A DNA stretch of 63,323 bases from a virus, in IMG/VR virus record IMGVR_UViG_3300047457_000456, positions 1-63,323 of that record; one strand, given 5' to 3'. A model generated the notes under the pieces. That model was not told the DNA's origin and searched no databases. It saw nothing but the letters and a program-made list of their open reading frames with translations. Numbering within the stretch: position 1 is the first letter of the stretch; every line of letters starts with the position of its first letter. Positions 1 to 61,505 of the stretch are shown here, piece after piece. A program made the position numbers and the translations under genes.

Positions 1-13
1 GGCTTGCCGGGTG
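1..13. repeat. Terminal direct repeat, left copy
   Basis: The first 13 bases (ggcttgccgggtg) are identical to the last 13 at 63311-63323. This is the usual sign of a contig that closes into a circle, either because the molecule is circular or because the phage genome is circularly permuted. It is too short to be read as a natural long terminal repeat. Confidence 0.8.
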
Positions 14-36
14 GGGTTGGCTGGGTATCCGGGGGG
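9..36 (+). other. G-quadruplex-compatible G-run cluster
   Basis: Runs of three or more G at 9-11, 13-16, 23-25 and 31-36 are separated by loops of 1, 6 and 5 nt, which meets the canonical four-run definition. Across the circular junction a second set (GGGGGG, GGGG, GGG, GGGG from about 63301 to 16) also fits. The rest of the genome has ordinary composition, so the concentration at the non-coding junction stands out. Function is unknown. Confidence 0.5.
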
Positions 37-367
37 TGTCTAGGTGGGCGACGGGTCGCATAAGGCTCCCTCTGTATTATTAGGCATGGTTAGGCGATGT
101 CTACCATGTCCTTTGGCTGCCAGCCACGCTGTATCATCCTGAACTGAGCACGGCGATTCTAGTCCGTGAACCGAGCGAGTCGGATACACCCTAATCAACA
201 GTTTGAGCGATACTCCACAACCCTGTGTCGATGTTCTGTGGTTGGTAGCCAAGTTTCTAATCCTAGATAGTCAATCTCCTATTCCCGGAGGTGCGGATGG
301 TTTATTCTGTCCGTGCCATTCCGGGGTATCCCTGTCGGTGCCACCAATGTCATATGACCTGCGGTGT

Positions 368-384
368 CATGGTTCGACTCCATG
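368..384 (+). other. Isolated tRNA T-arm-like hairpin
   Basis: CATGG, TTCGACT, CCATG form a 5-bp stem closing a 7-nt loop that fits the tRNA T-loop rule TTCRANY. The matching acceptor and anticodon arms of a full tRNA cannot be built around it. It resembles the T-arms of the four minihelices at 1067-2436, but no acceptor-like stem is clear here. It sits in the leader upstream of the first gene. Confidence 0.45.
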
Positions 385-395
385 TAAGGGGTATA

Positions 396-412
396 CCCCA
401 CGCTAAGTGGGG
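396..412 (+). other. Leader hairpin CCCCAC/GTGGGG
   Basis: A 6-bp perfect stem with a GCTAA loop follows the T-arm-like hairpin and precedes the pseudoknot at 417-442. The order T-arm, then CCCC/GGGG hairpin, is the same as in the leaders at 1067-1122 and 1536-1589. No T-run follows, so it is not an obvious terminator. Confidence 0.45.
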
Positions 413-416
413 ACAC

Positions 417-442
417 GTGGGGTGCGCCTACATATCACGCAC
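417..442 (+). promoter_or_regulatory. Leader pseudoknot element 1
   Basis: Stem 1 pairs GTGG(G) at 417-421 with (C)CTAC at 427-431. Its loop carries GTGCG (422-426), complementary to CGCAC (438-442), so the two stems interleave as an H-type pseudoknot. The ribosome binding site AGGAG and ATG 461 follow at once. Stem 2 is the same as in the elements at 5184, 6145 and 6699, while stem 1 differs in sequence. Confidence 0.5.
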
Positions 443-460
443 ATTTCATAGGAGTCTAAA

Positions 461-820
461 ATGACTACACAAACTCTTCTCGCCGCTTCCATCGACCGCA
501 TCGTCCTCGGACGAGAGAAGGTCAAGTTCGGAACGGTTTACACCCTCCTCTACACGACGGCTAAGGCCATCGAGGGTGGCCGTATCGAAGACGTTAAGCG
601 TGCAAACGCTCTCATTGAGCGTTCTATCGCTGACGGAAGCATCGAACTCCTCTGCACCGACGAGCAGATGGAAATGCTTGAGTGGGGATTGGACCAGCTC
701 GCTAAGTTCACAACTGGCGAATGCATGGCCATCAAGGAGCGCAAGCAACTGGATGCGGTTGCTCTGCGTGTTGCTGACTTCAACCGTAAGGTTGCCCAGT
801 CGGCACAGTACGAGTTCTAA
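461..820 (+). CDS. Hypothetical early protein, 119 aa
   Basis: This is the first gene of the plus-strand early cluster. ATG 461 is preceded by AGGAG at good spacing and by the pseudoknot leader. The product is soluble and probably mostly helical, with charged segments (GREKVKF, IEDVKRANALIERS) and a single TM-free chain. No family is recognised. Being first in the transcript, it is probably expressed very early. Its codons are richer in C and G at third positions than those of the next genes. Confidence 0.75.
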   Translation: MTTQTLLAASIDRIVLGREKVKFGTVYTLLYTTAKAIEGGRIEDVKRANALIERSIADGSIELLCTDEQMEMLEWGLDQLAKFTTGECMAIKERKQLDAVALRVADFNRKVAQSAQYEF

Positions 821-848
821 GAACTCACGATTGACAATCTGGGAGTTT

Positions 849-872
849 GGTGCATCTCCGGCAAAATGCACC
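849..872 (+). promoter_or_regulatory. Leader hairpin GGTGCAT/ATGCACC
   Basis: A perfect 7-bp stem with a 10-nt loop lies between the stop at 820 and the AAGGAG of the next gene. There is no T-run, so it is more likely a processing, stability or translation element than a terminator. It occupies the same position as the repeated RNA elements of the neighbouring leaders. Confidence 0.5.
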
Positions 873-900
873 ACTATCTAGTTCCAAGGAGAAACGACAA

Positions 901-1071
901 ATGGTAAGCAAGCAACTGTATCTCGCCCTCTGCATTAAGATGCGCCTTCAATCGGCGCATTTCCAGATCAAACTGGACAACAATGGTGAGACACCAAGTT
1001 GGTATGTCCGCCGTATCCTCTTCCTAAACCGGGTAATCCGCAAGGAAGAGGCCAAAGCGTTTGGCCGGTAG
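901..1071 (+). CDS. Hypothetical small basic protein, 56 aa
   Basis: ATG 901 has AAGGAG about 8 nt upstream; the open frame extends further 5' but without a better start. The product is short and basic (RRILFLNRVIRKEE), with no membrane segment or recognised family. Its TAG stop lies inside the 5' acceptor-like strand of the tRNA-like minihelix at 1067-1107, so gene end and RNA element are interlocked. Confidence 0.6.
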   Translation: MVSKQLYLALCIKMRLQSAHFQIKLDNNGETPSWYVRRILFLNRVIRKEEAKAFGR

Positions 1072-1107
1072 GCTGGTGCCTTGTAGGGGTTCGATTCCCC
1101 TACTACC
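1067..1107 (+). ncRNA. tRNA-like minihelix, copy A
   Basis: GGTAG (1067-1071) pairs with CTACC (1103-1107). Just inside the 3' strand is a T-arm with stem AGGGG/CCCCT and loop TTCGATT, identical to a canonical tRNA T-loop. D and anticodon arms are replaced by an 11-nt linker (gctggtgcctt). TTTTT, a CCC/GGG hairpin and an AGGAG ribosome binding site follow. The element repeats at 1536, 2094 and 2394. It could be a processing signal recognised by tRNA enzymes; function is inferred only. Confidence 0.65.
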
Positions 1108-1141
1108 TTTTTCCCAATAGGGATGTTTGAAGGAGAAACCG

Positions 1142-1537
1142 ATGAATACTCATCAATTGGCAATGCTGAGGACCTTGGCCCTGATGTCTAAGGAAGAGCT
1201 TAGTAAGCTCAACATCAAAGGTCGTGACATCCACGACGTGACACGGAAGGTCACCTATCGTGACCAGAAGGGTGTCGAGACGGACTTCCTCGTTGACCTC
1301 AAATTCGCAATGAGGCATCACCGAGACCCCGAATGGAAGGGCTATTTAGTTGCACCATCGACGTGCGACAACCCTAGCTGTCCATTCCATACGGGACGCA
1401 CATTCGTGTACGTCTTTGATTACAAGGGATGGGGGAAGACGGAATGGATGTGGGATGCCCCCGATGGTGAGGGGGTTGACAGTGGTTGCGGAGACCACTC
1501 TTGGCTGACCGACGACATGAAGGTCGAGGTCAAGTAG
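1142..1537 (+). CDS. Hypothetical early protein with Cys/His cluster, 131 aa
   Basis: ATG 1142 follows AAGGAG at normal spacing. The protein starts helical, then has a beta-rich, aromatic C-terminal half. Residues around CDNPSCPFH, with a later CGDH, could bind a metal, but the spacing matches no family I can name. It lies between two tRNA-like elements: copy A forms its leader, and copy B begins at its TAG stop. Confidence 0.7.
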   Translation: MNTHQLAMLRTLALMSKEELSKLNIKGRDIHDVTRKVTYRDQKGVETDFLVDLKFAMRHHRDPEWKGYLVAPSTCDNPSCPFHTGRTFVYVFDYKGWGKTEWMWDAPDGEGVDSGCGDHSWLTDDMKVEVK

Positions 1538-1575
1538 ATAGACTGGGAAACCGGGGTTCGATTCCCCGGCTATCT
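1536..1575 (+). ncRNA. tRNA-like minihelix, copy B
   Basis: AGATAG (1536-1541) pairs with CTATCT (1570-1575). The T-arm CCGGGG/CCCCGG with loop TTCGATT (1551-1569) stacks directly on the acceptor-like stem, as in a tRNA. Relative to copies A, C and D the acceptor has an A-T pair in place of G-C (GATAG/CTATC against GGTAG/CTACC), a compensatory change. The linker is only 9 nt. A CCCC/GGGG hairpin and GAGGAG follow. Confidence 0.7.
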
Positions 1576-1609
1576 TTCCCCAACAGGGGTTTGTTTGAGG
1601 AGAAAGACA

Positions 1610-2098
1610 ATGATTACATTGATGTTTGACCACCCGACATTGGAAGCCACCATCAACGCAGGAATCACCACGTTCTGCCAGCGTGGCAACATCGCCATGC
1701 CGAAGAACGGCGATACCGTTGCATTGGCGTATGCCATTGCAAAAGATGTGCGCCCATATGGAATGATGTTCACTCACCAGATCCACCTTACGGACGATTT
1801 ATTTATTCAGCCGAAACACATTGACGACGAGCGCCACACATGTGAGTGGCTCGTATACCGTCACTGCCGAGTGGTGATTGACGGAGTTACAGTGGACGCA
1901 CCTGTCCACGTGGCCAACTTTGGCTGGTCGTCTGATTCATACAAACATGAGCCAGCCGAATATGGCAAGTATTGCTATCTAGCTGTCATGAGGGGGAATG
2001 AGAATACCCCCACGTGGGAGCAGATGTACTACGACCGAGAGTTGTTCTATGTAGAGTTTGAACGACAGAACATTGAGAAGATCAACGCTGGACGGTAG
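1610..2098 (+). CDS. Hypothetical early protein, 162 aa
   Basis: ATG 1610 follows GAGGAGAAAGACA and is preferred to the upstream in-frame codon at 1595, which lies in the leader. The product is soluble, with many His and aromatic residues and no recognised motif. It sits between tRNA-like copies B and C; its TAG stop forms part of the acceptor-like strand of copy C. Confidence 0.7.
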   Translation: MITLMFDHPTLEATINAGITTFCQRGNIAMPKNGDTVALAYAIAKDVRPYGMMFTHQIHLTDDLFIQPKHIDDERHTCEWLVYRHCRVVIDGVTVDAPVHVANFGWSSDSYKHEPAEYGKYCYLAVMRGNENTPTWEQMYYDRELFYVEFERQNIEKINAGR

Positions 2099-2135
2099 AG
2101 CTGGTGCTAAGCCGGGGTTCGATTCCACGGCTACC
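2094..2135 (+). ncRNA. tRNA-like minihelix, copy C
   Basis: GGTAG (2094-2098) pairs with CTACC (2131-2135). The T-arm (2111-2131) has the invariant loop TTCGATT but one G-A mismatch in its stem (GCCGGGG against CCACGGC). The linker agctggtgctaag is close to that of copies A and D. A CCCC/GGGG hairpin (2139-2150) and AAGGAG follow. Confidence 0.65.
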
Positions 2136-2176
2136 TTTCCCCAATAGGGGTTTGTTTGAGAAGGAGAATGGGAACT

Positions 2177-2395
2177 ATGTTTGAAGGATGGTTTACAGCT
2201 CACGGCTTCACATGTCGATGGTGGCCAGCAGAACACAACAACACATGGATATGCATTTCGACCAGCAATGGTCTCAATAAGCAGAAGGTGTACGTTGTTT
2301 CGCAGTCTCAACTGCGAGACAGGCTGTCTGATGCAGCCAAGACCTTGCCAAATGGCGAGGTCATAATCCCGCAAATCAAAATGATTGGCAACTAG
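2177..2395 (+). CDS. Hypothetical small early protein, 72 aa
   Basis: ATG 2177 (MFEGWF) is chosen because AAGGAG at about 2160 is well spaced for it; ATG 2168 lies too close to that site. The product is a small, Trp-rich soluble protein of unknown function. Its stop codon is part of tRNA-like copy D. Confidence 0.6.
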   Translation: MFEGWFTAHGFTCRWWPAEHNNTWICISTSNGLNKQKVYVVSQSQLRDRLSDAAKTLPNGEVIIPQIKMIGN

Positions 2396-2436
2396 GTAGG
2401 CTGGTGCTAGGCTGGGGTTCGATTCCCCAGCTACCT
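2394..2436 (+). ncRNA. tRNA-like minihelix, copy D
   Basis: AGGTAG (2394-2399) pairs with CTACCT (2431-2436). The T-arm CTGGGG/CCCCAG with loop TTCGATT (2412-2430) stacks on it. The linker is gctggtgctagg. The following hairpin is CTCC/GGAG here rather than CCCC/GGGG, again keeping pairing while changing sequence. AAGGAG and ATG 2473 follow. Confidence 0.7.
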
Positions 2437-2472
2437 TTTCTCCCTAGTGGAGAAGTTTGAAGGAGAAAGACA

Positions 2473-2652
2473 ATGACGGAAAGAGAAAAAAGAATAGCTG
2501 CAATCAATGCAAAAATGCCAGAAGGCCAACAACTGCCAGCTGATTATTGCGTGGCAGATACGGTGGCTATGGTCATTAACTTGTTGCTTGCAAGCCTCGT
2601 CGTTGGCACGATTATGTATGACATGATCGTCACACTTATGTCGAAAGGGTAA
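2473..2652 (+). CDS. Small membrane protein, 59 aa
   Basis: ATG 2473 has AAGGAG upstream. A charged N-terminus (MTEREKRIAA) is followed by one hydrophobic segment at about residues 33-55 (VAMVINLLLASLVVGTIMY). The product is probably a single-pass inner-membrane protein of unknown role. It is the first of three consecutive small membrane-protein genes. Confidence 0.6.
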   Translation: MTEREKRIAAINAKMPEGQQLPADYCVADTVAMVINLLLASLVVGTIMYDMIVTLMSKG

Positions 2653-2656
2653 TCTA

Positions 2657-2842
2657 ATGCAGAATCTCGTAAATCGTAATCGTAAATTGGTTGATGCCAA
2701 CACTGGCCTCACCATGCTCTGCGTGGCACTGGCAATCATGTGCCTCGCATGTTTCACGCAGAACATCAAGCTGCGTGAGAAGAACGCACACCTTGATGAC
2801 AGAATCGCTAACGCAGAGGCAGTCTGCGGACAGAAGTTCTAA
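2657..2842 (+). CDS. Small membrane protein, 61 aa
   Basis: ATG 2657 lies 4 nt after the previous stop, with AAAGGG as ribosome binding site. One hydrophobic segment lies at about residues 17-34 (LTMLCVALAIMCLACF), followed by a charged, possibly coiled-coil tail. The function is unknown; the gene is co-transcribed with the flanking small membrane proteins. Confidence 0.6.
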   Translation: MQNLVNRNRKLVDANTGLTMLCVALAIMCLACFTQNIKLREKNAHLDDRIANAEAVCGQKF

Positions 2843-2848
2843 TCACTA

Positions 2849-2873
2849 TGGGGGATGCGCATCCTACACGCAT
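2849..2873 (+). promoter_or_regulatory. Leader pseudoknot-like element 2a
   Basis: ATGCG (2855-2859) can pair with CGCAT (2869-2873). TGGGG (2849-2853) can pair with TCCTA (2862-2866) through two G-T pairs, giving interleaved stems; a competing palindrome GGATGCGCATCC is also present. The ATGCG/CGCAT stem covaries with GTGCG/CGCAC of the other elements. About 35 nt around it are repeated almost exactly at 3037-3071. AAAGGAG follows. Confidence 0.45.
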
Positions 2874-2895
2874 ACTAGAAAGGAGATTAAATAGC

Positions 2896-3036
2896 ATGAA
2901 TATTCAAGACATCATTGCCACTGTCTGCTTAGTGCCAGTTGCCTTTGTTGCTATTGGGTCAGCAATATGTTTGCTCTGTATGCCTTTTCACTACCTTTCA
3001 GATTATATGCATTTAATCTGTAGGAAAAAGTCTTAG
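2896..3036 (+). CDS. Small membrane protein, 46 aa
   Basis: ATG 2896 is favoured because AAAGGAGAT lies 11 nt upstream; the longer open frame would run through the repeated RNA element. One long hydrophobic segment spans about residues 5-30 (IIATVCLVPVAFVAIGSA), with a basic C-terminus (CRKKS). Its role is unknown. Confidence 0.6.
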   Translation: MNIQDIIATVCLVPVAFVAIGSAICLLCMPFHYLSDYMHLICRKKS

Positions 3037-3042
3037 TCACTA

Positions 3043-3067
3043 TGGGGGATGCGCATCCTACACGCAT
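3043..3067 (+). promoter_or_regulatory. Leader pseudoknot-like element 2b
   Basis: This is a near-exact second copy of the element at 2849-2873, with the same ATGCG/CGCAT pairing (3049-3053 with 3063-3067) and the same flanks. AAAGGAGATAGAG and ATG 3086 follow. Two identical leaders 194 bp apart imply duplication or selection on the RNA. Confidence 0.45.
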
Positions 3068-3085
3068 ACTACAAAGGAGATAGAG

Positions 3086-3301
3086 ATGAAGAAAGAACAA
3101 GAAGCCCACGACAAGGCATTGCAAGCCATGCATGAGTTCTTCTGGAACCGCAAGCCTACCGATCCGTTGGTAGAAACCATGCGTAGACAGAAGGAACTGG
3201 TTGAAGCATGGCATCAGGCCGAGAAGGCATACAAAGCAGCATACGCAGAAGCTATGCGTAAGAAGTTCCTCGACTTAGGAGATACAAATGAAGCAGTATG
3301 A
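3086..3301 (+). CDS. Hypothetical charged helical protein, 71 aa
   Basis: ATG 3086 follows AAAGGAG. The product is rich in Lys, Glu and Ala, with heptad-like spacing (TMRRQKELVEAWHQAEKAYK), so it is probably helical or a coiled coil. It overlaps the next gene by 14 nt, suggesting translational coupling. No family is recognised. Confidence 0.65.
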   Translation: MKKEQEAHDKALQAMHEFFWNRKPTDPLVETMRRQKELVEAWHQAEKAYKAAYAEAMRKKFLDLGDTNEAV

Positions 3302-3707
3302 ATGTGGTTTCGGTAACAAGCGTGTTGATATAGGATTTCACACGTACTACGCAGTGTGTGCTGACACACCTGAAGCAATCAGCTACAAACTTGATCTACT
3401 CAAAGACAGCTTACGGCATCGATTTGAGTTTACGCATCAAGATACAGGAGCACTTTGGTCTTTTGATGTAAAGAAGATACATGTGTACACAGTCACCAAA
3501 AAGTACAGTCTGAATCGTGGGTCAATCAAAGAATGTCTGTCTGTACCACCTGACATTTCTTTCAGTATCGCTCTCGAAGGCAGGTGCGCCCTGCATACAG
3601 AGGGCAAGGCAAGTTGTCCCGATGATGCTTGCCAATACTTAAGGGCAGCTCTTGATAGGGCTATCCCTGAATCAATCGGAATAAACTTTTTTGAGGTAAT
3701 CAAATGA
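3288..3707 (+). CDS. Hypothetical early protein, 139 aa
   Basis: ATG 3288 lies inside the end of the previous gene and has TTAGGAG upstream. The product is soluble and mixed alpha/beta, with a late Cys pair (SCPDDAC). Function is not recognised. It overlaps the next gene by 4 nt (ATGA), as in a tightly packed operon. Confidence 0.7.
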   Translation: MKQYECGFGNKRVDIGFHTYYAVCADTPEAISYKLDLLKDSLRHRFEFTHQDTGALWSFDVKKIHVYTVTKKYSLNRGSIKECLSVPPDISFSIALEGRCALHTEGKASCPDDACQYLRAALDRAIPESIGINFFEVIK

Positions 3708-4027
3708 ACACACAACCAATCTACACAGCTAAAGAACTCGCACAGATCGAGAAGATTCGTCAACGTGCTATCGATCGGGCTAACCGAAAGCCTAAGCCTA
3801 AGATCTTCACGACTCGCCTAAACAAGTCCGAATACAAGTACCTTGTGTCGGCTGTTGGGCGTGACATCCTGTGCAAGGCTGTAGATACTACACAAGCACA
3901 GACCTACACATCAGAAGCTGCTGCTGAGAAGATGCTATTGGCTCTGGCTGTAAGCCCACAAGAGCATGGTGTACTACTACGCTTTGCCAAAATGGTAGCC
4001 GACAAGAAGGCACAACTCAGCCAGTAG
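3704..4027 (+). CDS. Hypothetical early protein, 107 aa
   Basis: It starts in an ATGA overlap with the previous gene. The product is basic and helical, with a Lys/Arg-rich segment (RANRKPKPKIFTTRLNKSEY) that could contact nucleic acid. It ends just before a terminator-like hairpin at 4041-4072, so it is probably the last gene of the first early segment. Confidence 0.7.
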   Translation: MNTQPIYTAKELAQIEKIRQRAIDRANRKPKPKIFTTRLNKSEYKYLVSAVGRDILCKAVDTTQAQTYTSEAAAEKMLLALAVSPQEHGVLLRFAKMVADKKAQLSQ

Positions 4028-4040
4028 GGGTGTAAATAAA

Positions 4041-4072
4041 GAGGGGTGTAAAATTTATACCCCTCAATTTTT
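4041..4072 (+). terminator. Rho-independent terminator
   Basis: GAGGGGT (4041-4047) pairs with ACCCCTC (4059-4065); three further A-T pairs and a G-T extend it inward to about 11 bp, and AATTTTT follows. It lies directly after the gene ending at 4027. A related hairpin follows at 4082-4105, and a partial third copy of aggggtgtaaa precedes it. Confidence 0.7.
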
Positions 4073-4081
4073 ACTAGGGGG

Positions 4082-4105
4082 GAGGGTGTAAAATTTACTA
4101 CCCTC
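4082..4105 (+). promoter_or_regulatory. Second related hairpin after the terminator
   Basis: GAGGGT pairs with ACCCTC, enclosing GTAAA/TTTAC. It shares the core gggtgtaaaattta with the terminator at 4041-4072 but has no T-run after it, so it may be a 5' leader structure or a decayed duplicate of the terminator. Confidence 0.5.
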
Positions 4106-4141
4106 ATTACATTGAAGGAAAAGCAATAAGGAACTATAGTA

Positions 4142-4369
4142 ATGGCACGTGAGAAGAAGGTAGAGAGAGATATCCGCATTGAGTATCCATCAAGGAAGAC
4201 AACGGATGATTCATACAAAGCCAAGTGGGGCGTGTATGAGTACATTGTCAAGGAAGATGGCACTGTAGACCGCAGGTTCCTGCAAGACTTTGATTACCGT
4301 GACATGGCAGTCGAGGCTTACCCTGAAGCCACATTCAAGCCGAGCGGATATGTGAACCCAGAACTATGA
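4142..4369 (+). CDS. Hypothetical early protein, 75 aa
   Basis: The start is ATG 4142; the ribosome binding site is weak (AAGGAACTATAGTA). The product is a small, charged, tyrosine-rich soluble protein of unknown function. It is first after the terminator pair and overlaps the next gene by 4 nt (ATGA). Confidence 0.65.
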   Translation: MAREKKVERDIRIEYPSRKTTDDSYKAKWGVYEYIVKEDGTVDRRFLQDFDYRDMAVEAYPEATFKPSGYVNPEL

Positions 4370-4686
4370 GATTCCAAGTAGGCTCGCGAGTACGTAATGT
4401 ACGACGACCAGATGTGATTGGTGTGGTGACATCACTTGATGCACCCGCCAATCAGTGGAAGGTGCGACCAGAAGACTTTCGCATCACCGTCAAGTACCCA
4501 CGGGTAACTAAGACGAGCAATGGCAAGTGGAAAGGAGGCGAACTGGACGAGTTGCCAGCTGACCTTCTCCTCACAGGAGAAAAGCCACATGAGGCATACA
4601 CAGAACTACTCAAGAAGAATGCCTACGGTGTTGTAGCAAACATCGGGGCATGGGACAAGAAGAAAGCTAACGAGAGAAAGACATGA
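4366..4686 (+). CDS. Hypothetical protein with SH3/KOW-like start, 106 aa
   Basis: It starts by ATGA overlap. The N-terminus (VGSRVRNVRRPDVIGVVTSL) has the pattern of a small SH3-like or KOW-like barrel: a polar strand, a basic turn, then GxV strands. That suggests nucleic-acid or protein binding. This rests on pattern only. It overlaps the next tiny membrane-protein gene by 4 nt. Confidence 0.65.
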   Translation: MRFQVGSRVRNVRRPDVIGVVTSLDAPANQWKVRPEDFRITVKYPRVTKTSNGKWKGGELDELPADLLLTGEKPHEAYTELLKKNAYGVVANIGAWDKKKANERKT

Positions 4687-4799
4687 CAGCGATAGTAATA
4701 TGCTCATGCATAGCCATCCTTTCAATCATCGGTTTGATCGGATGGTTTTTTAATTCAATAGAAGAAGCACAGAAAAGGATAGACGACAGAGATGAATAA
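4683..4799 (+). CDS. Tiny membrane protein, 38 aa
   Basis: ATG 4683 overlaps the previous stop (ATGA), and the frame ends at 4799, inside the start of the next gene (4792). Residues 3-23 are hydrophobic (AIVICSCIAILSIIGLIGWF), followed by a charged tail. The overlaps on both sides support it as a real gene. Function is unknown. Confidence 0.6.
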   Translation: MTAIVICSCIAILSIIGLIGWFFNSIEEAQKRIDDRDE

Positions 4800-5178
4800 C
4801 ATTATCGAGCCACACATTCTCGCAACTCAAGTTCTCCGCGCTTACAGTAAGCACGAAGAGATCACTAACATCGAGTTCCACAATGACTTCAACATGCGGT
4901 CTAAGCACCGCTGTAACCTCAATGGGACAATCAACATCACACTTATCATGCAGTATGAACGCATGACTAACGCCGTATACAGGCTCAACCTTTCCATCCA
5001 CGACAAGACGTGGCGCATCAAGAGTGACGGTTACATCAAAGATGTCAACGTTGCATACGACCAATCATGCCCGGATTGCCAGCCAACATACATGATGATG
5101 CGAATGTACGCTGAGACATTCGTAGATACTGTACTCAAGCTCAAGACCGTTGAAGGTCATGGGTTCCTCGTAGACTAA
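4792..5178 (+). CDS. Hypothetical early protein, 128 aa
   Basis: ATG 4792 overlaps the end of the tiny membrane-protein gene. The product is soluble and beta-rich with a CPDC pair near residue 90; no family is recognised. It is followed by the first of three near-identical pseudoknot leaders. Confidence 0.7.
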   Translation: MNNIIEPHILATQVLRAYSKHEEITNIEFHNDFNMRSKHRCNLNGTINITLIMQYERMTNAVYRLNLSIHDKTWRIKSDGYIKDVNVAYDQSCPDCQPTYMMMRMYAETFVDTVLKLKTVEGHGFLVD

Positions 5179-5183
5179 TCACT

Positions 5184-5213
5184 ACTGAGGGGTGCGTCTC
5201 AGTGACAACGCAC
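5184..5213 (+). promoter_or_regulatory. Leader pseudoknot element 3a
   Basis: Stem 1 is ACTGAG (5184-5189) with CTCAGT (5198-5203). Loop bases GTGCGT (5192-5197) pair with ACGCAC (5208-5213). This is an H-type pseudoknot with loops of 2, 0 and 4 nt. Relative to copies 3b and 3c the stem 1 pair C-G is replaced by G-C. The ribosome binding region and ATG 5230 follow directly. Confidence 0.7.
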
Positions 5214-5229
5214 AAGAAAGAGAAAACAA

Positions 5230-5538
5230 ATGCTTACACACTACCTTAACCTCATCCTTAACTACGCCTATCGTCGCATCCATCCCGGCGGTGCGTTTGA
5301 GGCATTCATCAAGCAACAGCCTGATGCCATTTACAGACTGGATAAAGATGCACAGCGCAACCTTGCAGAGATCTGGAAGTTTGCATATCAGCATCTTGAC
5401 CACAGTTCATGGGGCGCACAAGGCTTTGAGAACTGGGTGGCAGGTACACCTACAGAAGCAGAGCTTACAGACTACTACAAATACTACAACGACTTAATCA
5501 AAACAGATTGGACACAGGTGGATACAAGTCATGGCTAA
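5230..5538 (+). CDS. Hypothetical early protein, 102 aa
   Basis: ATG 5230 lies 16 nt after the pseudoknot, with an A-rich, weak ribosome binding site (AAGAAAGAGAAAACAA). The product is soluble, helical and aromatic (YYKYYNDLIK). Unknown function. It overlaps the next gene by 8 nt. Confidence 0.7.
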   Translation: MLTHYLNLILNYAYRRIHPGGAFEAFIKQQPDAIYRLDKDAQRNLAEIWKFAYQHLDHSSWGAQGFENWVAGTPTEAELTDYYKYYNDLIKTDWTQVDTSHG

Positions 5539-5803
5539 CTACCCGTATATTTACACTTGCCAGTGTTATGACTTTGAGGGTCGAGAATTCGGCCCTCCTA
5601 TTGTTTGGAGAACTGCAGCATGGGCTAAAACGTGGTCTCGATACAGAGTTATTATTCAAGAAGAAACCACACCCGTAATGAATGTACGGATAACACGTAG
5701 AAGGAATGGAGCATACATCGATGAGCCGTTCATGCTAGTCTGGTTTGATAACAAAACTGGACAACCAACACAGACACGAAAGAAGGAACATTTAATCAAA
5801 TGA
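5531..5803 (+). CDS. Hypothetical early protein, 90 aa
   Basis: ATG 5531 overlaps the previous gene. The product is beta-rich and basic (RITRRRNG), with two aromatic strands. No recognised family. It overlaps the next gene by 4 nt. Confidence 0.65.
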   Translation: MANYPYIYTCQCYDFEGREFGPPIVWRTAAWAKTWSRYRVIIQEETTPVMNVRITRRRNGAYIDEPFMLVWFDNKTGQPTQTRKKEHLIK

Positions 5804-6138
5804 TTTACACAGAACGAGAAATAGTAACCACGTTGTATGACATCCAACGTGCTATACAAAAAATCGATCCAGTGATGTTTGGATGCCTTAACGAAGATCA
5901 TATTCTTAAGATCATGCAGAGTTCGCTTGGTCGCAAAATCAAAATAGATAAAGAGTTATACGGCACAGTTATGTTTCTTAATGAAGTCATAGTCCTGTTG
6001 TACAACGCTAAACAGAAAGACATACCAGAAGATCTGAATGTCTATCTTGAAACATGGAGATTAGCAATCTATCCCCTGTTCAAACATTATGTTGAAGAAC
6101 GTGCTGGCCGATTCATCTTTGTTCGCGTAAAGAAATAA
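5800..6138 (+). CDS. Hypothetical early protein, 112 aa
   Basis: It starts in an ATGA overlap. The product is helical and has no Cys cluster or membrane segment. Unknown function. It is last in its small operon before pseudoknot leader 3b. Confidence 0.65.
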   Translation: MIYTEREIVTTLYDIQRAIQKIDPVMFGCLNEDHILKIMQSSLGRKIKIDKELYGTVMFLNEVIVLLYNAKQKDIPEDLNVYLETWRLAIYPLFKHYVEERAGRFIFVRVKK

Positions 6139-6144
6139 CTAGAT

Positions 6145-6173
6145 GTGAGGGGTGCGTCTCACTAACAACGCAC
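6145..6173 (+). promoter_or_regulatory. Leader pseudoknot element 3b
   Basis: Stem 1 is GTGAG (6145-6149) with CTCAC (6158-6162). GTGCGT (6152-6157) pairs with ACGCAC (6168-6173). Loops are 2, 0 and 5 nt. It has the same layout as copies 3a and 3c and lies just upstream of ATG 6189. Confidence 0.7.
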
Positions 6174-6188
6174 AGAAAGAGAAACAAA

Positions 6189-6692
6189 ATGTCAACAATT
6201 AATATTCACTCCGATTACTTCAAGTCTAGCTTGCTCGCCCTCAAGGGCAAGATCGATGATGGCATTGCAAGGTCATATGATTACTACCAAGTTTGTTATC
6301 ATGACGACACTCAGTTCATTAACAATCACAGAATCAATGCTGCATATCGGTTGCGCTTTAATGCCGCAAGTGTAGACGATAATGGCGTTATGACAATGCT
6401 TGATAAACCAGTAGCGTTGATAACTGCTGAACTTGAGTATCGTGAGTCAAAAGATAGTACTGATAGTTGTGCATCAAAGAAGAAGGCATACGATGTCATA
6501 CTTCCTGATGGCACACTGGAAGAACAAATAGATTACGCCATTGAGGTATTCAAGACCGTGATTACTGAGAATCAGATACCACAAATCCCACTGGACTTTT
6601 GGAGGTTTGCATCGGAAGGTATGGCAAAGTGGGAAAAGGCATACGAAGTCACACTCAAGGCTCATCAACTAACTCTGTCCGCTAAGGACTAA
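6189..6692 (+). CDS. Hypothetical early protein, 167 aa
   Basis: ATG 6189 follows AAAGAGAAACAAA and pseudoknot 3b. The product is soluble and mixed alpha/beta. No motif is recognised. It stands as a single gene between two pseudoknot leaders (3b and 3c). Confidence 0.7.
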   Translation: MSTINIHSDYFKSSLLALKGKIDDGIARSYDYYQVCYHDDTQFINNHRINAAYRLRFNAASVDDNGVMTMLDKPVALITAELEYRESKDSTDSCASKKKAYDVILPDGTLEEQIDYAIEVFKTVITENQIPQIPLDFWRFASEGMAKWEKAYEVTLKAHQLTLSAKD

Positions 6693-6698
6693 CTGGAT

Positions 6699-6727
6699 GT
6701 GAGGGGTGCGTCTCACCGACAACGCAC
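6699..6727 (+). promoter_or_regulatory. Leader pseudoknot element 3c
   Basis: Stem 1 is GTGAG (6699-6703) with CTCAC (6712-6716). GTGCGT (6706-6711) pairs with ACGCAC (6722-6727). The single-stranded linker differs from copy 3b (CGACA against TAACA) while both stems are kept, which points to selection for structure. ATG 6750 follows. Confidence 0.7.
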
Positions 6728-6749
6728 AACCACACACTAAGGAAACACT

Positions 6750-7013
6750 ATGAAGTACACAATACACACATTTCGTTCTCTCGTTGACGAGATGATGATT
6801 GATCACGTTGGATTAACAACCAATGACCTACCAGACGTAAGCCTGTGGGATTACTTTGATCCAGATGAAGACTATACACAAGAAGAAATATCTGAAGCTG
6901 CAATGCAAGCTGTCATGGCAGTACTTGAAGAGGGAGATTGTCCACAAGACATCATCGACTCTATTGTTTCCGCTGTTACAAGCATGGAAGCACGAACACT
7001 GAGAGGAATATAA
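6750..7013 (+). CDS. Hypothetical acidic early protein, 87 aa
   Basis: ATG 6750 has CTAAGGAAACACT upstream. The protein is strongly acidic in the middle (DYFDPDEDYTQEEISEAAMQ) and helical. Small acidic early phage proteins often inhibit host enzymes or mimic DNA; here that is only an inference from composition. Confidence 0.65.
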   Translation: MKYTIHTFRSLVDEMMIDHVGLTTNDLPDVSLWDYFDPDEDYTQEEISEAAMQAVMAVLEEGDCPQDIIDSIVSAVTSMEARTLRGI

Positions 7014-7019
7014 ATAACA

Positions 7020-7487
7020 ATGCCACTTACATACGACACAACTAACTGCCACCCATTAGTTCGCGAAGAACTTGCTGGCATCACAGAATCAATCATCTTT
7101 ATAACCATGAATACAAGACATGGATGGGAGTTGAACAAAAAGACAATGCCCGTTTTCATTCGCAGGTTCAATCTCTTAAATAAAACATGGAGGTATTTAT
7201 GTATGGCTGACACAACGCATATGCGACGAACACATGACCGTATATGGCTTGACAAGTTTGGACTGCAATGGATTGGCGATGAGTATCCTCACCTTGTTCT
7301 GACTGAAGACTCAGTGCAGACGTATTGGTTCGGACTCAAAACTAATTGTGGTCAAGACACAGATGCAAAATGGAACAAGAACTTCTTGGAGAACCAATAT
7401 CGTGAGTCTTTTGAGCAGAGTCCGTTTTATCTGCGATACAGAACGATTGAACAAGTAAAGGATTTATTCAATGAGCTTTGTATTTAG
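7020..7487 (+). CDS. Hypothetical early protein, 155 aa
   Basis: ATG 7020 lies 6 nt after the previous stop. The product is Trp-rich and soluble, with a THMRRTHDR segment; no family is recognised. It overlaps the next gene by 17 nt. Confidence 0.65.
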   Translation: MPLTYDTTNCHPLVREELAGITESIIFITMNTRHGWELNKKTMPVFIRRFNLLNKTWRYLCMADTTHMRRTHDRIWLDKFGLQWIGDEYPHLVLTEDSVQTYWFGLKTNCGQDTDAKWNKNFLENQYRESFEQSPFYLRYRTIEQVKDLFNELCI

Positions 7488-7788
7488 GCCTATTGTGTAC
7501 ACATTCTGGAGCACGTTCGGGGATAACACCCCGAACGACTTCATCGCTCGTTATATCGAACCAAGGTATGGCAATGCTGACGGTGTAGCAATACGCCGTA
7601 GACTTGCCCGTGAGATTGGTTGTACTGGACTACGGCGTGGTGTTGAGTACTACGTCACTGATGTCTATCACAGCATGTTCAGTGAACGTCACTGCATGGT
7701 GGGTTTTGCTGAAGTGCTTGCACCTATAACCGTTGAGTCCAAGAAAGAAGCACAAGAAATCTGTGCAAATATGGAGTTAAAGCAATGA
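7471..7788 (+). CDS. Hypothetical early protein, 105 aa
   Basis: ATG 7471 lies inside the previous gene (AAAGGATTTATTC upstream). The product is soluble and has an Arg-rich stretch (IRRRLAREIGCTGLRRG). Function is unknown. It overlaps the next gene by 4 nt. Confidence 0.65.
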   Translation: MSFVFRPIVYTFWSTFGDNTPNDFIARYIEPRYGNADGVAIRRRLAREIGCTGLRRGVEYYVTDVYHSMFSERHCMVGFAEVLAPITVESKKEAQEICANMELKQ

Positions 7789-8168
7789 GTGAATGGTTCA
7801 GTCTAGAAGACCGCAACTATCAGAACGACCACCGTGTACGCGGTGGTCGTGATCGTTGGTGGATTGCAATTGATGAACGCAAGATGCTAGTGAGGCACAA
7901 GTATGACAGTAAAAACAATAAACAAGTTTGGTACAAGTTTAAATATGAAGCTTGTGATACATGTGATGGCAAAGGTCATCATGTTAATCCTTCTGTTGAC
8001 TGCGACGGTCTAACAGCTGAGGATATGTATTATGGCGGTTACGAAGAAGATTATTTTTCTGGCGTGTACGACGTTGCTTGCTACAAATGCCATGGTGAAC
8101 GAGTCATGCCAGTAAAGTTCGGAAAAGCAATATACAAAAAATCAAATGAGGAGAATCGTTATGAGTGA
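7785..8168 (+). CDS. Zinc-ribbon-type conserved phage protein, 127 aa
   Basis: Two Cys pairs, CDTCDGKGHHVNPSVDCDG and CYKCHGERV, frame a conserved core containing GLTAEDMY and DYFSGVYDV. DnaJ-like CxxCxG spacing with this acidic insert is seen in a family of small phage and bacterial proteins of unknown role. It probably binds zinc and may contact protein or nucleic acid. It starts in an ATGA overlap and overlaps the next gene by 8 nt. Confidence 0.75.
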   Translation: MSEWFSLEDRNYQNDHRVRGGRDRWWIAIDERKMLVRHKYDSKNNKQVWYKFKYEACDTCDGKGHHVNPSVDCDGLTAEDMYYGGYEEDYFSGVYDVACYKCHGERVMPVKFGKAIYKKSNEENRYE

Positions 8169-19047: not shown

Positions 19048-22000
19048 TATTTATTCACTCCACCTTCTCCAAAACCAGTTAGTACACCGCTGACACCAGA
19101 GTCACCAAGTACATCAATAATATTTCTATACTTAGCACTCTTCCTCATTTCTTTTAACTTACTTCTATTCGTCCCGCCGTCTGACCTTGCGTCTAACCAA
19201 GCCTTCTCATATTGATCAGTTACATTTAAGTTAAGTCCAATCAAGTTAGCAGCTGCAAGTGCTGGCATGGATTCATAGTTTTTATCATCAATAAAGTACA
19301 ACTCTTCTCCCATAATAGCCCTCTGAAGATCAATGTCGTCTTCAATAGAATTCATCTGAGATAACTCGTTAATGGTAAACACAAGCTCTGTTGCAAAGCG
19401 TGATATTTCAGGTGGAGACATACGCAATATCTCACCAACAAGTGGTATGTTTCCATAACTTTCTAAAGCCTTCTTGCGCATTTCTCGGTAGCCTAAACTA
19501 TTTTCAAATGCAGCTCTACCTATATAGTCTTTGCCAGAAATTCCAGTTTTTAACAAACTCAGCAATGGACTCATTGCATTCTCTACATATTGAGTTAGAT
19601 ACCATTGCATAGTAGTGGCTATACCAGCATCACCAATCTTTGTTGGCCTAAGTGTTTGTCTAGTCATGCGACCCAATGCACCCGGCATAGATGAAGAATA
19701 TGTTTTTCCTTTATGTTCAAATGTCATCATTCCACTTAATGCGTCAGTTGCAGTATCTGCAATAAACTTAAACTTGTCAGGTTTTTCGTCTGAGTCTTCA
19801 AGTACAGTTGCAACTGCTTTACCAAATGCTAAAAGCTTTAACAAACGCCAGCCAAGTGGACCAACAAGTGACGATGCAAAACCAGTGTAGAACTTACGTT
19901 TAATATAGGCATTTGCGTAACCACTAAATTCTGGCGACCCCATTAATACACGTTGTTCTGTCTGAGTGTTAATGCGAGTATTAGAACCAGATAACTCAAA
20001 ACCCTTATTAACTAATTGTTTAGCTCCTAACAAAATGTGGCCAACACCCGGAGTTAATACCATTCGAGTTTTTGTATATGGCGCAGAAAAGAATAACTTT
20101 GAGAATGCTGACTGCACTTTGTTTAGCTGATCACTATTACTAAACTGACCTTGATCATTACCGCCAAGTAAGTTTACTGACCAAGCTATATCTTTCAGTA
20201 ATCGTTGTTGGAATTGCTCCTGTGTACCAACAAAGTCAGCAGGTCTTCCAACTTTAATTACATTTTGATATTCATCTTGGAACGCCATGATTTTTGCAAG
20301 GTCCTTGTAAATCACGTTGGTTCGTTCAAAAGCTGACAATCCCGGCGCAATCTTTTTGAATACTGCGGTAATGTGACCTTCACCAAGCATGTCATCAAAT
20401 CGTGAGTTTAAAGGTATATCTTCCTTACGGATGTCTGGATTTTCACCCAACGCTTCCTTGAATAAATTAAAGTGTTTTAGATAATCAAGGCTTAAACCAT
20501 ATGCTTGCATATCTTCAAGTGATAAGTCAGGCACAAAGTTTAGTACAGTCTCTATAGCAAGATGTACAGCCTTATCACCAAATGCTGTATCTCCAGCTTG
20601 CGCTAAAGCATGCCTTGGATTAGCAATAGATTGCTTTAAACTTGGAAGGTTTGGAGCCATTCCGATTATTGAAAGTGCAACACTACTCATCATTGGTGGC
20701 CGTTTACCAGACGCTAATGACATAAAGTCACCTAACCAGTTAGCATTCAAGTAGCTTTGGTTTGCCATAGCTGATAAGTCGCGTGATAACTTTGCAATGC
20801 GAACAAGAGAGTCAATCTCAAGCAAGCCTTGACCAATGCCATTTGCAGCAACCTGTGCTCCTTTGCCAAGTTTTGTAATAGTTTTTGCTGCATTACTGCC
20901 AGCTTTAATATTCTTTGCCCCATTTGCATCTACAGATACTTCAATGCGATCTGGGTCCATCGATGGGTCTTCATCTAGTAAGTTAGCAAAATCTACGTCT
21001 GGATCTGGTTCCATTGCTTCTTTGACAAGTTGCCCGATGTCATCTGGGTTAGGATTATTACGCAACATTTCAATATCGCGTTGACTAAATCCGTTGGAGA
21101 ATAACGTTAATCCCCATGTTTCATCTGCATCATCAAGTTTAGAGGCGATAGTTCTGCCCTTACTCAATACCTTTCCGTTAGCGCCTTTACGCTCTTGTCC
21201 TGTTACTGTACGTAACTTTTCTGCAATCGGTGCATTCTCATTCATTGCTTTCTTTACAAGTATCTTAGCAATGTGAACTTCAGGTAATGATATGCCAGCT
21301 GCGTTTGATTGATCAGACGCAAGTAGTCCACCAAGACCTAACTTTCGGTTCATGACTGCATCTTCCGTAAATGGAATACCTCGATCACGAATACGCCAAG
21401 CATCTTGGTTTTTATCCCAAAGAACCTCAAGCGTTCTAAGCGTAACTAATTCACCCGGAACAGGATTTTTAAATGCTGACAAAATGTCATTTAAGTTCCT
21501 GAACTTAGATGGCATATCGACCTTGCCTCCAACATATTCATTTCTATGTGGTAGTGCAATGGTTATGATTTGACTATCAGGCTGATTAGGATCTTGTGTG
21601 CTTTTCATTGCAGCAGATAAGGCAGTCAGTGATTCGGAACCACCAACTAGCAAGTTTGTTTTTGGGTCTAAGAAGTCTTTTGGCAATATAGAATGTGGCT
21701 TAGTTGTGTCCTGTGGACTCAAGTAAACATATGTTTCCGTTGGATAGTATTCTCCATCTTGTGTTTGAGATACTGCACCAAACAAACGTTCGTCATCTGA
21801 TAATTGACCATACTTACCAGCACTGTCCGAAATCATAGCAGTTGCTTTAAAAAGACTTGTTCCAGTTTCAGACGTTTTTGATAATGGCCTATCACTGAAA
21901 ACCCACGATCCATCAACTTGATTGCGCTCAGCTAGTACAACGCGTCCATCATCTGGATTAACTGCGTAGTATGGTTTTAAACCTTCTGGTTTTTTAACAG

Positions 22001-61424: not shown

Positions 61425-61505
61425 TACCCCAGACGGGACTCGAACCCGTACACCTTGCGGTAACAGATTTTAAGTCTGTCGTGTCTACCATTCCACCACC
61501 GGGGC
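61425..61505 (-). tRNA. tRNA-Leu (anticodon TAA)
   Basis: Acceptor 61505-61499 (GCCCCGG) pairs with CTGGGGT, with two G-T pairs; discriminator A 61425. D-stem GTG/CAC, anticodon stem ACAGA/TCTGT with loop CTTAAAA (anticodon TAA), a short variable stem ACC/GGT, and T-arm ACGGG/CCCGT with loop TTCGAGT. CCA is not encoded. It may boost reading of UUA codons. The predicted RNA start of promoter site 3 falls at about its first base. Confidence 0.9.

Follow-up and report, generated by a model that had tools for sequence, protein, structure and literature searches.

The stretch of viral DNA analysed here (IMG/VR record IMGVR_UViG_3300047457_000456, positions 1 to 63,323; hereafter the window, 63,323 nucleotides (nt) in full) carries four short elements, which we call mini-tRNAs, in each of which an acceptor-like stem encloses a T-arm of the transfer RNA (tRNA) type. 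Dozens of bacterial and archaeal viruses that otherwise have little in common carry the same element between their genes. With a probability of roughly 0.55, we propose that mini-tRNAs are anticodon-less tRNA mimics within polycistronic viral messenger RNA (mRNA) that are cut by host tRNA-maturation enzymes, i.e. that they serve as mRNA punctuation.

Structure and covariation of the mini-tRNA

A first-pass annotation of the window, made from its letters alone, had placed such elements at four positions. A structural descriptor (acceptor of at least 5 base pairs (bp), T-stem of 5-6 bp with at most one mismatch, T-loop, and TGG in the linker) returned exactly these four on the + strand and none on the - strand, against 0.1 per Markov-random window. 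Bit scores in the following list are those of R1, a covariance model built from 13 sequences.

1067-1107, + strand: mini-tRNA copy 1; acceptor GGTAG/CTACC, D-like segment GGCUGGUGCC, T-arm TAGGGG-TTCGATT-CCCCTA; 41.6 bits
1536-1575, + strand: mini-tRNA copy 2; acceptor AGATAG/CTATCT, short linker ACTGGGAAA, T-arm CCGGGG-TTCGATT-CCCCGG; 38.2 bits
2094-2135, + strand: mini-tRNA copy 3; acceptor GGTAG/CTACC, linker AGCTGGTGCTAAG, T-arm with one mismatch in the T-stem
2394-2436, + strand: mini-tRNA copy 4; acceptor AGGTAG/CTACCT, linker GCTGGTGCTAGG, T-arm CTGGGG-TTCGATT-CCCCAG; 47.5 bits

R1 holds only copy 3 of the four, yet it recovers the other three at 38-48 bits and picked up many further elements. 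The paired changes that had been claimed for the acceptor and the T-stem are present. The acceptor core is GGTAG/CTACC in three copies and GATAG/CTATC in one, with an extra closing A-U pair in copies 2 and 4, and the T-stems of about 6 bp change on both sides (TAGGGG/CCCCTA, CCGGGG/CCCCGG, CTGGGG/CCCCAG) around a T-loop that is TTCGATT in all four. The D and anticodon arms had been described as replaced by a linker of 9-13 nt. This length is correct for the window, and no anticodon-equivalent stem was found in the elements, whose linkers are only 9-14 nt long, but the linker is not featureless: CTGG is present in all four window copies and CTGGTGC in three, and in three copies the linker can form a mini D-arm, G-C-[UGGU]-G-C. 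The CUGGUG(C) of the linker resembles a shrunken D-loop and could dock on the T-loop. Single-sequence minimum-free-energy folds of the elements do not always show the acceptor; the support for the structure is comparative and does not come from single-sequence folding.

Named phages gave no DNA match to window bases 1-8000, and relatives identified by their portal protein are contigs of partial overlap only; the element-bearing parts were reached by pattern and whole-record searches. A pattern derived from the linker and T-arm matched 64 stretches of IMG/VR. Acceptor pairing exceeded the 95% null in 38 of 56 distinct matches, where 2.8 were expected. The null was the upstream sequence of the same locus, which replaced the swapping of acceptor strands between loci, a null that is too strict because many loci share GGTAG. 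Some 12-18 of the matches are probably due to chance (L012, L026, L060, L061, L072 and others; L numbers are our labels for the sequences compared), and a broader pattern search returned mostly 3' ends of transfer-messenger RNAs and tRNAs. The acceptors of relatives vary widely and include ACGGCGG/CCGCCGT, GGAGGGG/CCCCTCC, TCCCCCG/CGGGGGA, TGGTCATG/CGTGACCA, TCTGAT/ATCAGA, ACGACT/AGTCGT and GACAG/CTGTC.

A lack of covariation in relatives had been named beforehand as a result that would count against the element, and the outcome was strongly in its favour. In alignment A6 (52 sequences, 51 distinct), which was fitted to the R1 structure and whose counts therefore lean toward that structure, 95.1% of cells are paired vs 62.8% in shuffles, two-sided compensatory changes occupy 179 cells vs 47.7, and the covariation score is 0.78 vs 0.17 in shuffles and 0.04 to 0.17 in slid registers. 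A4, which was aligned independently, agrees with this, at 39 two-sided cells vs 11. We regard the covariation in A6 as decisive for a conserved RNA structure. It also bears on whether the elements could be degenerate tRNA genes or remnants of integration sites. Phages do acquire tRNA fragments, and some related phages carry an attachment-type tRNA-Leu, but such fragments would neither stay paired through 179 two-sided changes nor recur in several copies at the starts of genes, and they would resemble the acceptors of real tRNAs, which makes this origin very improbable.

Since CTGGTGC and GGTTCGATTCC were part of the search pattern, the pattern-found set cannot show their conservation, and none is claimed from it. 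CTGGTG recurs where the pattern did not require GTG, twice in L199 and also in L182, L230 and L202, and GG is nearly always present in the linkers of relatives that were found by gene or by model.

Genomic surroundings and spread among viruses

The first-pass annotation had each element begin at or inside a TAG stop and precede a small hairpin and a ribosome-binding site, and all four copies conform to this arrangement. The purine-rich ribosome-binding sites listed below were assigned directly from the sequence.

1069-1071, + strand: TAG stop of the upstream open reading frame (ORF), within the acceptor strand of copy 1
1112-1123, + strand: hairpin TCCC-AATA-GGGA, immediately 3' of copy 1
1130-1135, + strand: ribosome-binding site AAGGAG of the ORF from ATG 1142
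1535-1537, + strand: TAG stop of the upstream ORF, spanning the start of copy 2
1578-1589, + strand: hairpin CCCC-AACA-GGGG, immediately 3' of copy 2
1597-1602, + strand: ribosome-binding site GAGGAG of the ORF from ATG 1610
2096-2098, + strand: TAG stop of the upstream ORF, within copy 3
2139-2150, + strand: hairpin CCCC-AATA-GGGG, immediately 3' of copy 3
2161-2166, + strand: ribosome-binding site AAGGAG of the ORF from ATG 2177 (or 2168)
2393-2395, + strand: TAG stop of the upstream ORF, spanning the start of copy 4
2437-2455, + strand: hairpin TTTCTCC-CTAGT-GGAGAAG, immediately 3' of copy 4
2460-2465, + strand: ribosome-binding site AAGGAG of the ORF from ATG 2473
834-900, + strand: sister leader without mini-tRNA (alignment A7), its stretch up to CACCACTATCTAG identical in L037, L075 and L015

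In these three relatives a mini-tRNA and its hairpin follow directly after CACCACTATCTAG; at about 882 the window passes straight to the ribosome-binding site, TTCCAAGGAGAAA, and the gene that starts at 901, for which relatives have an additional mini-tRNA copy, has none in its leader. Mini-tRNA and hairpin thus appear, from this comparison, to be gained or lost as one unit. We call the genes around the elements early from their place in the left + strand arm together with a DnaB-like helicase gene, which makes this a putative timing.

Across the viruses, the elements occupy intergenic positions on the coding strand, and the next ORF mostly starts 15-60 nt past the element, farther in cyanophage capsid leaders. 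The stop codon of the preceding gene reaches 0-5 nt into the acceptor strand at about 20 loci, and in cyanophage capsid leaders the element lies 75-260 nt past the upstream stop. A hairpin of at least 5 bp starting at most 6 nt downstream of the element was found in 35 of 53 cases, vs 31% of background windows.

T-runs follow a GC-rich stem in the window (CTACCTTTTT, CTATCTTT), as would suit transcription terminators or attenuators. Most relatives, however, lack the U-run that a Rho-independent terminator combines with its GC-rich stem, and those without a T-run (such as CTACCTATTG, CATCAGACTTGCC and CCGCCGTATAGCC) keep the stem and the T-loop all the same. Termination would conserve neither the T-loop nor the UGG, and we consider it an improbable function.

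Two other leaders of the window were noted. One, at 340-430 on the + strand, is conserved, near-identical in L075, and contains a T-arm-like hairpin, CATGG-TTCGACT-CCATG (369-383), with two more hairpins; its loop is T-loop-like, but it has no acceptor and was not counted as a mini-tRNA. The other, also on the + strand, is a second, different repeated leader (TCACTATGGGGGATGCGCATCCTACACGCATACTA..AAAGGAGAT) at 2840-2890 and 3030-3085, which precedes two neighbouring small genes and is 86% identical across 65 nt.

Records hold between 1 and 7 mini-tRNAs by model matches. Named carriers are Synechococcus phages Syn5 (EF372997, 19841-19883), S-TIP28 (MZ803112, 21097-21139) and S-TIP37 (MH540083, 20517-20559). 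Carriers also include T7-like contigs in which the major head protein gene is next downstream of the element, and another T7-like contig, L021, whose primase/helicase is related to those of LUZ100 and RHEph01. The element precedes a small-terminase gene in L020 and a tail-assembly-chaperone gene in L022. In 85,000 bacterial and archaeal genomes, 27 pattern matches were found and none had a well-paired acceptor. The mini-tRNA therefore seems to be confined to viruses, with the caveat that bacterial and archaeal genomes would not contain lytic phages anyway.

A protein of L028 (IMGVR_UViG_3300031998_000241) matches only methanogen viruses, and this record, which encodes an integrase and a DNA helicase, is probably a methanogen virus. 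On its - strand, 1.3 kb of apparently non-coding DNA (1566-2823) contains 13 T-arm-like hairpins, and the opposite strand has none. Some of the 13 are minihelices of 12-13 bp that lack a linker and have the loop TGCAAAT, and several are followed by a small hairpin of their own. Such an array suggests mass production of mimics, as would be expected if released or embedded mini-tRNAs served as decoys that titrate either a host factor which binds tRNA or a defence nuclease directed at tRNA, with mRNA cuts as a by-product. Most phages, however, have 1-4 copies at gene borders, too few to titrate, and mimics without an anticodon would spare anticodon nucleases; a decoy role is therefore quite unlikely.

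Three further observations concern single records. A weaker candidate (27.9 bits) is located directly before ORF 23 of the haloarchaeal His2 virus (7626-7657; L083 1491-1527, + strand), with the acceptor GTAG/CTAC and a linker without GG. In L016, a RAGATH-1 hammerhead ribozyme (1158-1234, - strand) lies a few hundred nt upstream of mini-tRNAs at 771-813 and 395-435 on the same strand, possibly two types of RNA-cutting module within one phage operon. In the cyanophage-like contig L034, a mini-tRNA and the capsid gene are preceded, at a distance of about 200 nt, by a glutamine-II riboswitch match (3580-3633, + strand).

Known tRNA-like RNAs and whole tRNAs in capsid leaders

Rfam 15 gave no match at gathering score at the elements, and ARAGORN together with Rfam returned nothing at mini-tRNAs in the window or elsewhere; the only RNA these tools recognised in the window is a tRNA-Leu at 61425-61505 on the - strand. 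The elements lack the four-arm cloverleaf with anticodon arm of canonical tRNA (RF00005). They share with it an acceptor on a T-arm with a 7-nt T-loop, a secondary structure seen by covariation in which the two stems would stack. The nearest Rfam family is mascRNA-menRNA (RF01684), with which copy 4 aligns over the full length of the family model; it scores 16 bits vs a gathering score of 42.5, so it is not a member.

A T-loop together with two Gs of the D-loop forms the core of tRNA mimicry in mascRNA, which RNase P and RNase Z reportedly release from MALAT1 (PMC11693755). CTGG or another GG is present in nearly all mini-tRNA linkers and may dock on the T-loop in a comparable way. Like the mini-tRNA, mascRNA and menRNA (from the 3' ends of MALAT1 and MENbeta) have an acceptor and a T-arm but no functional anticodon; the Gs on which their T-loop docks belong to a tiny D-loop. 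However, they are vertebrate non-coding RNAs of 57-58 nt that keep an anticodon-equivalent stem, whereas the phage element measures 40-47 nt, lacks this stem and stands between protein-coding genes. In mitochondrial transcripts, tRNAs between cistrons let RNase P and RNase Z free the mRNAs. That punctuation uses whole tRNAs that are active in translation; the phage element lacks the decoding half.

The tRNA-like structures of plant RNA viruses imitate the tRNA elbow, as the mini-tRNA seems to, and that of turnip yellow mosaic virus is an RNase P substrate (PMC4810234, PMC11143913). They use pseudoknots and occupy the 3' terminus of RNA genomes, and differ in this from mini-tRNAs, which are internal, multicopy and located in the mRNAs of double-stranded DNA viruses. 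Phage RNAs reported as RNase P substrates are M3 RNA, C4 antisense RNA and T4 gene 32 mRNA (PMC11143913); these are single cases in particular phages and not a recurrent covarying module.

As a rule, the major-capsid-gene leader of T7-like cyanophages has some T-arm-like hairpin, the build of which varies (L147-L156). Syn5, S-TIP28 and S-TIP37 have a mini-tRNA at this spot and NATL1A-7 has a full tRNA-Gly, whereas in P-SSP7 and P-SSP2 and in S-CBP42 and S-CBP2 it is a T-arm with the loop TGCGAGT, TGCAAAT or TTCGACT. The leaders of SS120-1 and S-CBP1 have a different loop, an identical 15-nt CACCTCAGAGTCGGA on differing stems, which is possibly another RNA motif. No T-arm-like hairpin was seen in the capsid leader of Roseobacter phage CRP-125. 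A full tRNA-Asn(GTT) occupies the capsid leader of LUZ100 (L141, 20769-20906 region) and RHEph01 (L143, 23441-23514), and the window relatives L013, L025, L063 and L073 also carry tRNA-Asn(GTT). These capsid-leader tRNAs, Asn and Gly alike, have the same gene position as the Syn5 mini-tRNA; unlike it, they are complete cloverleaves with an anticodon, are found by ARAGORN and give no significant match to the mini-tRNA model.

Proposed punctuation of viral mRNA

RNase P, RNase Z and CCA-adding enzymes recognise a tRNA by its acceptor and elbow (PMC4810234). Mini-tRNAs keep what processing enzymes use (the acceptor/T-stem stack, the T-loop and the D-loop-like GG), have lost the decoding parts and carry no CCA, and relatives have full tRNAs at the equivalent spot, in one case with a mapped RNA 3' end at the 5' boundary of the tRNA; from this combination we infer mRNA punctuation. 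The first-pass annotation had suggested that the phage uses minihelices to cut or protect its early mRNA. Recognition by tRNA-processing enzymes does seem the best explanation of the element, but it is not specific to the early mRNA of this phage, because in cyanophages the mini-tRNA precedes the major capsid gene.

Under the proposed mechanism, the acceptor and T-stem would stack into a helix of mostly 11-12 bp, on which the 7-nt T-loop and the D-loop-like UGG of the linker would imitate the tRNA elbow. Host RNase P (on the 5' side) and tRNase Z (on the 3' side) would then cleave the viral transcript at the borders of the element, and the downstream mRNA would begin with a short 5' hairpin and a ribosome-binding site. 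No encoded CCA follows the elements (0 of 52 downstream sequences start with NCCA), and they share this CCA-less end with tRNase Z substrates. In cyanophage capsid leaders, with the element 75-260 nt past the stop, a 5' cut would be unproblematic.

Several observations weigh against punctuation. In the window, and likewise in about 20 relatives, cutting at the 5' side would split or take away the stop codon of the preceding gene and leave a nonstop mRNA; if RNase P simply cut at 1067, that gene would be parted from its stop. The elements show no clear bias toward U at -1 or G at +1, nor toward a purine discriminator, and stem length is variable across the elements (9-15 bp). The mapped RNA 3' end of LUZ100, which speaks for punctuation, is itself ambiguous. 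The LUZ100 record is annotated from a published long-read map with a 'terminator' T14 at 20769-20868 (PMC10134795); calibrated on the intrinsic terminators of the record, the T14 RNA 3' end falls at about 20828, some 2 nt before the first base of tRNA-Asn (20831), which is about what RNase P cutting would be expected to yield. The same end, however, follows a terminator-like hairpin, GCTCCGT..ACGGAGC-TTTC, and because of this it may be no RNase P product; moreover, it concerns a whole tRNA and not a mini-tRNA.

With regard to the stop codons, either translation would compete with cutting or the 3' cut would dominate. Since a 5' cut in the window severs the stops, cutting there by tRNase Z at the 3' side is the likelier form, and the upstream mRNA would then end in the mini-tRNA, which would act as a structured 3' cap. 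The same overlap could be read without any cut, the element being a stable insulator between cistrons (a block to 3'-to-5' exonucleases, or an insulator of translation coupling or of the start site) or a binding site for tRNA-modifying proteins, for example TruB or T-loop methyltransferases. A ribosome terminating in the acceptor strand would unfold the stem, a natural coupling switch; the loop fits the T-arm consensus, TruB acts on T-arm minihelices (PMC4810234), and a mere stabiliser tolerates variable stem length. A stabiliser has no need of a T-loop or a D-loop-like GG, however, and the full tRNAs at the equivalent spot in relatives point to the tRNA-processing pathway. We hold an uncut element to be rather unlikely, and favour punctuation by tRNA-maturation enzymes.

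To our knowledge, tRNA mimicry has been described in plant RNA viruses and in a few non-coding RNAs of eukaryotes. In the searchable literature, subscription papers and preprints excluded, we found neither an earlier description of the element nor an account of tRNA mimicry as a means by which DNA phages in general process their mRNA, and the novelty of the element is therefore provisional. In a broader form, for which we see about even odds, mini-tRNAs would be widespread, recurrently evolving viral mRNA elements that hijack universal tRNA end-processing to cut and cap mRNAs between genes, in a role like that of RNase III sites in T7. If so, many viruses would shape their mRNAs with host enzymes that cells can hardly do without, and a common functional element would escape phage annotation, since mini-tRNAs are invisible to tRNA finders and to Rfam. 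Studies of RNase P and tRNase Z would likewise gain a natural minimal substrate in the mini-tRNA. The elements mark the borders of operons, and one of these is the major-capsid-gene leader of the cultivable cyanophages Syn5 and S-TIP37; punctuation is thus directly testable in existing infection systems.
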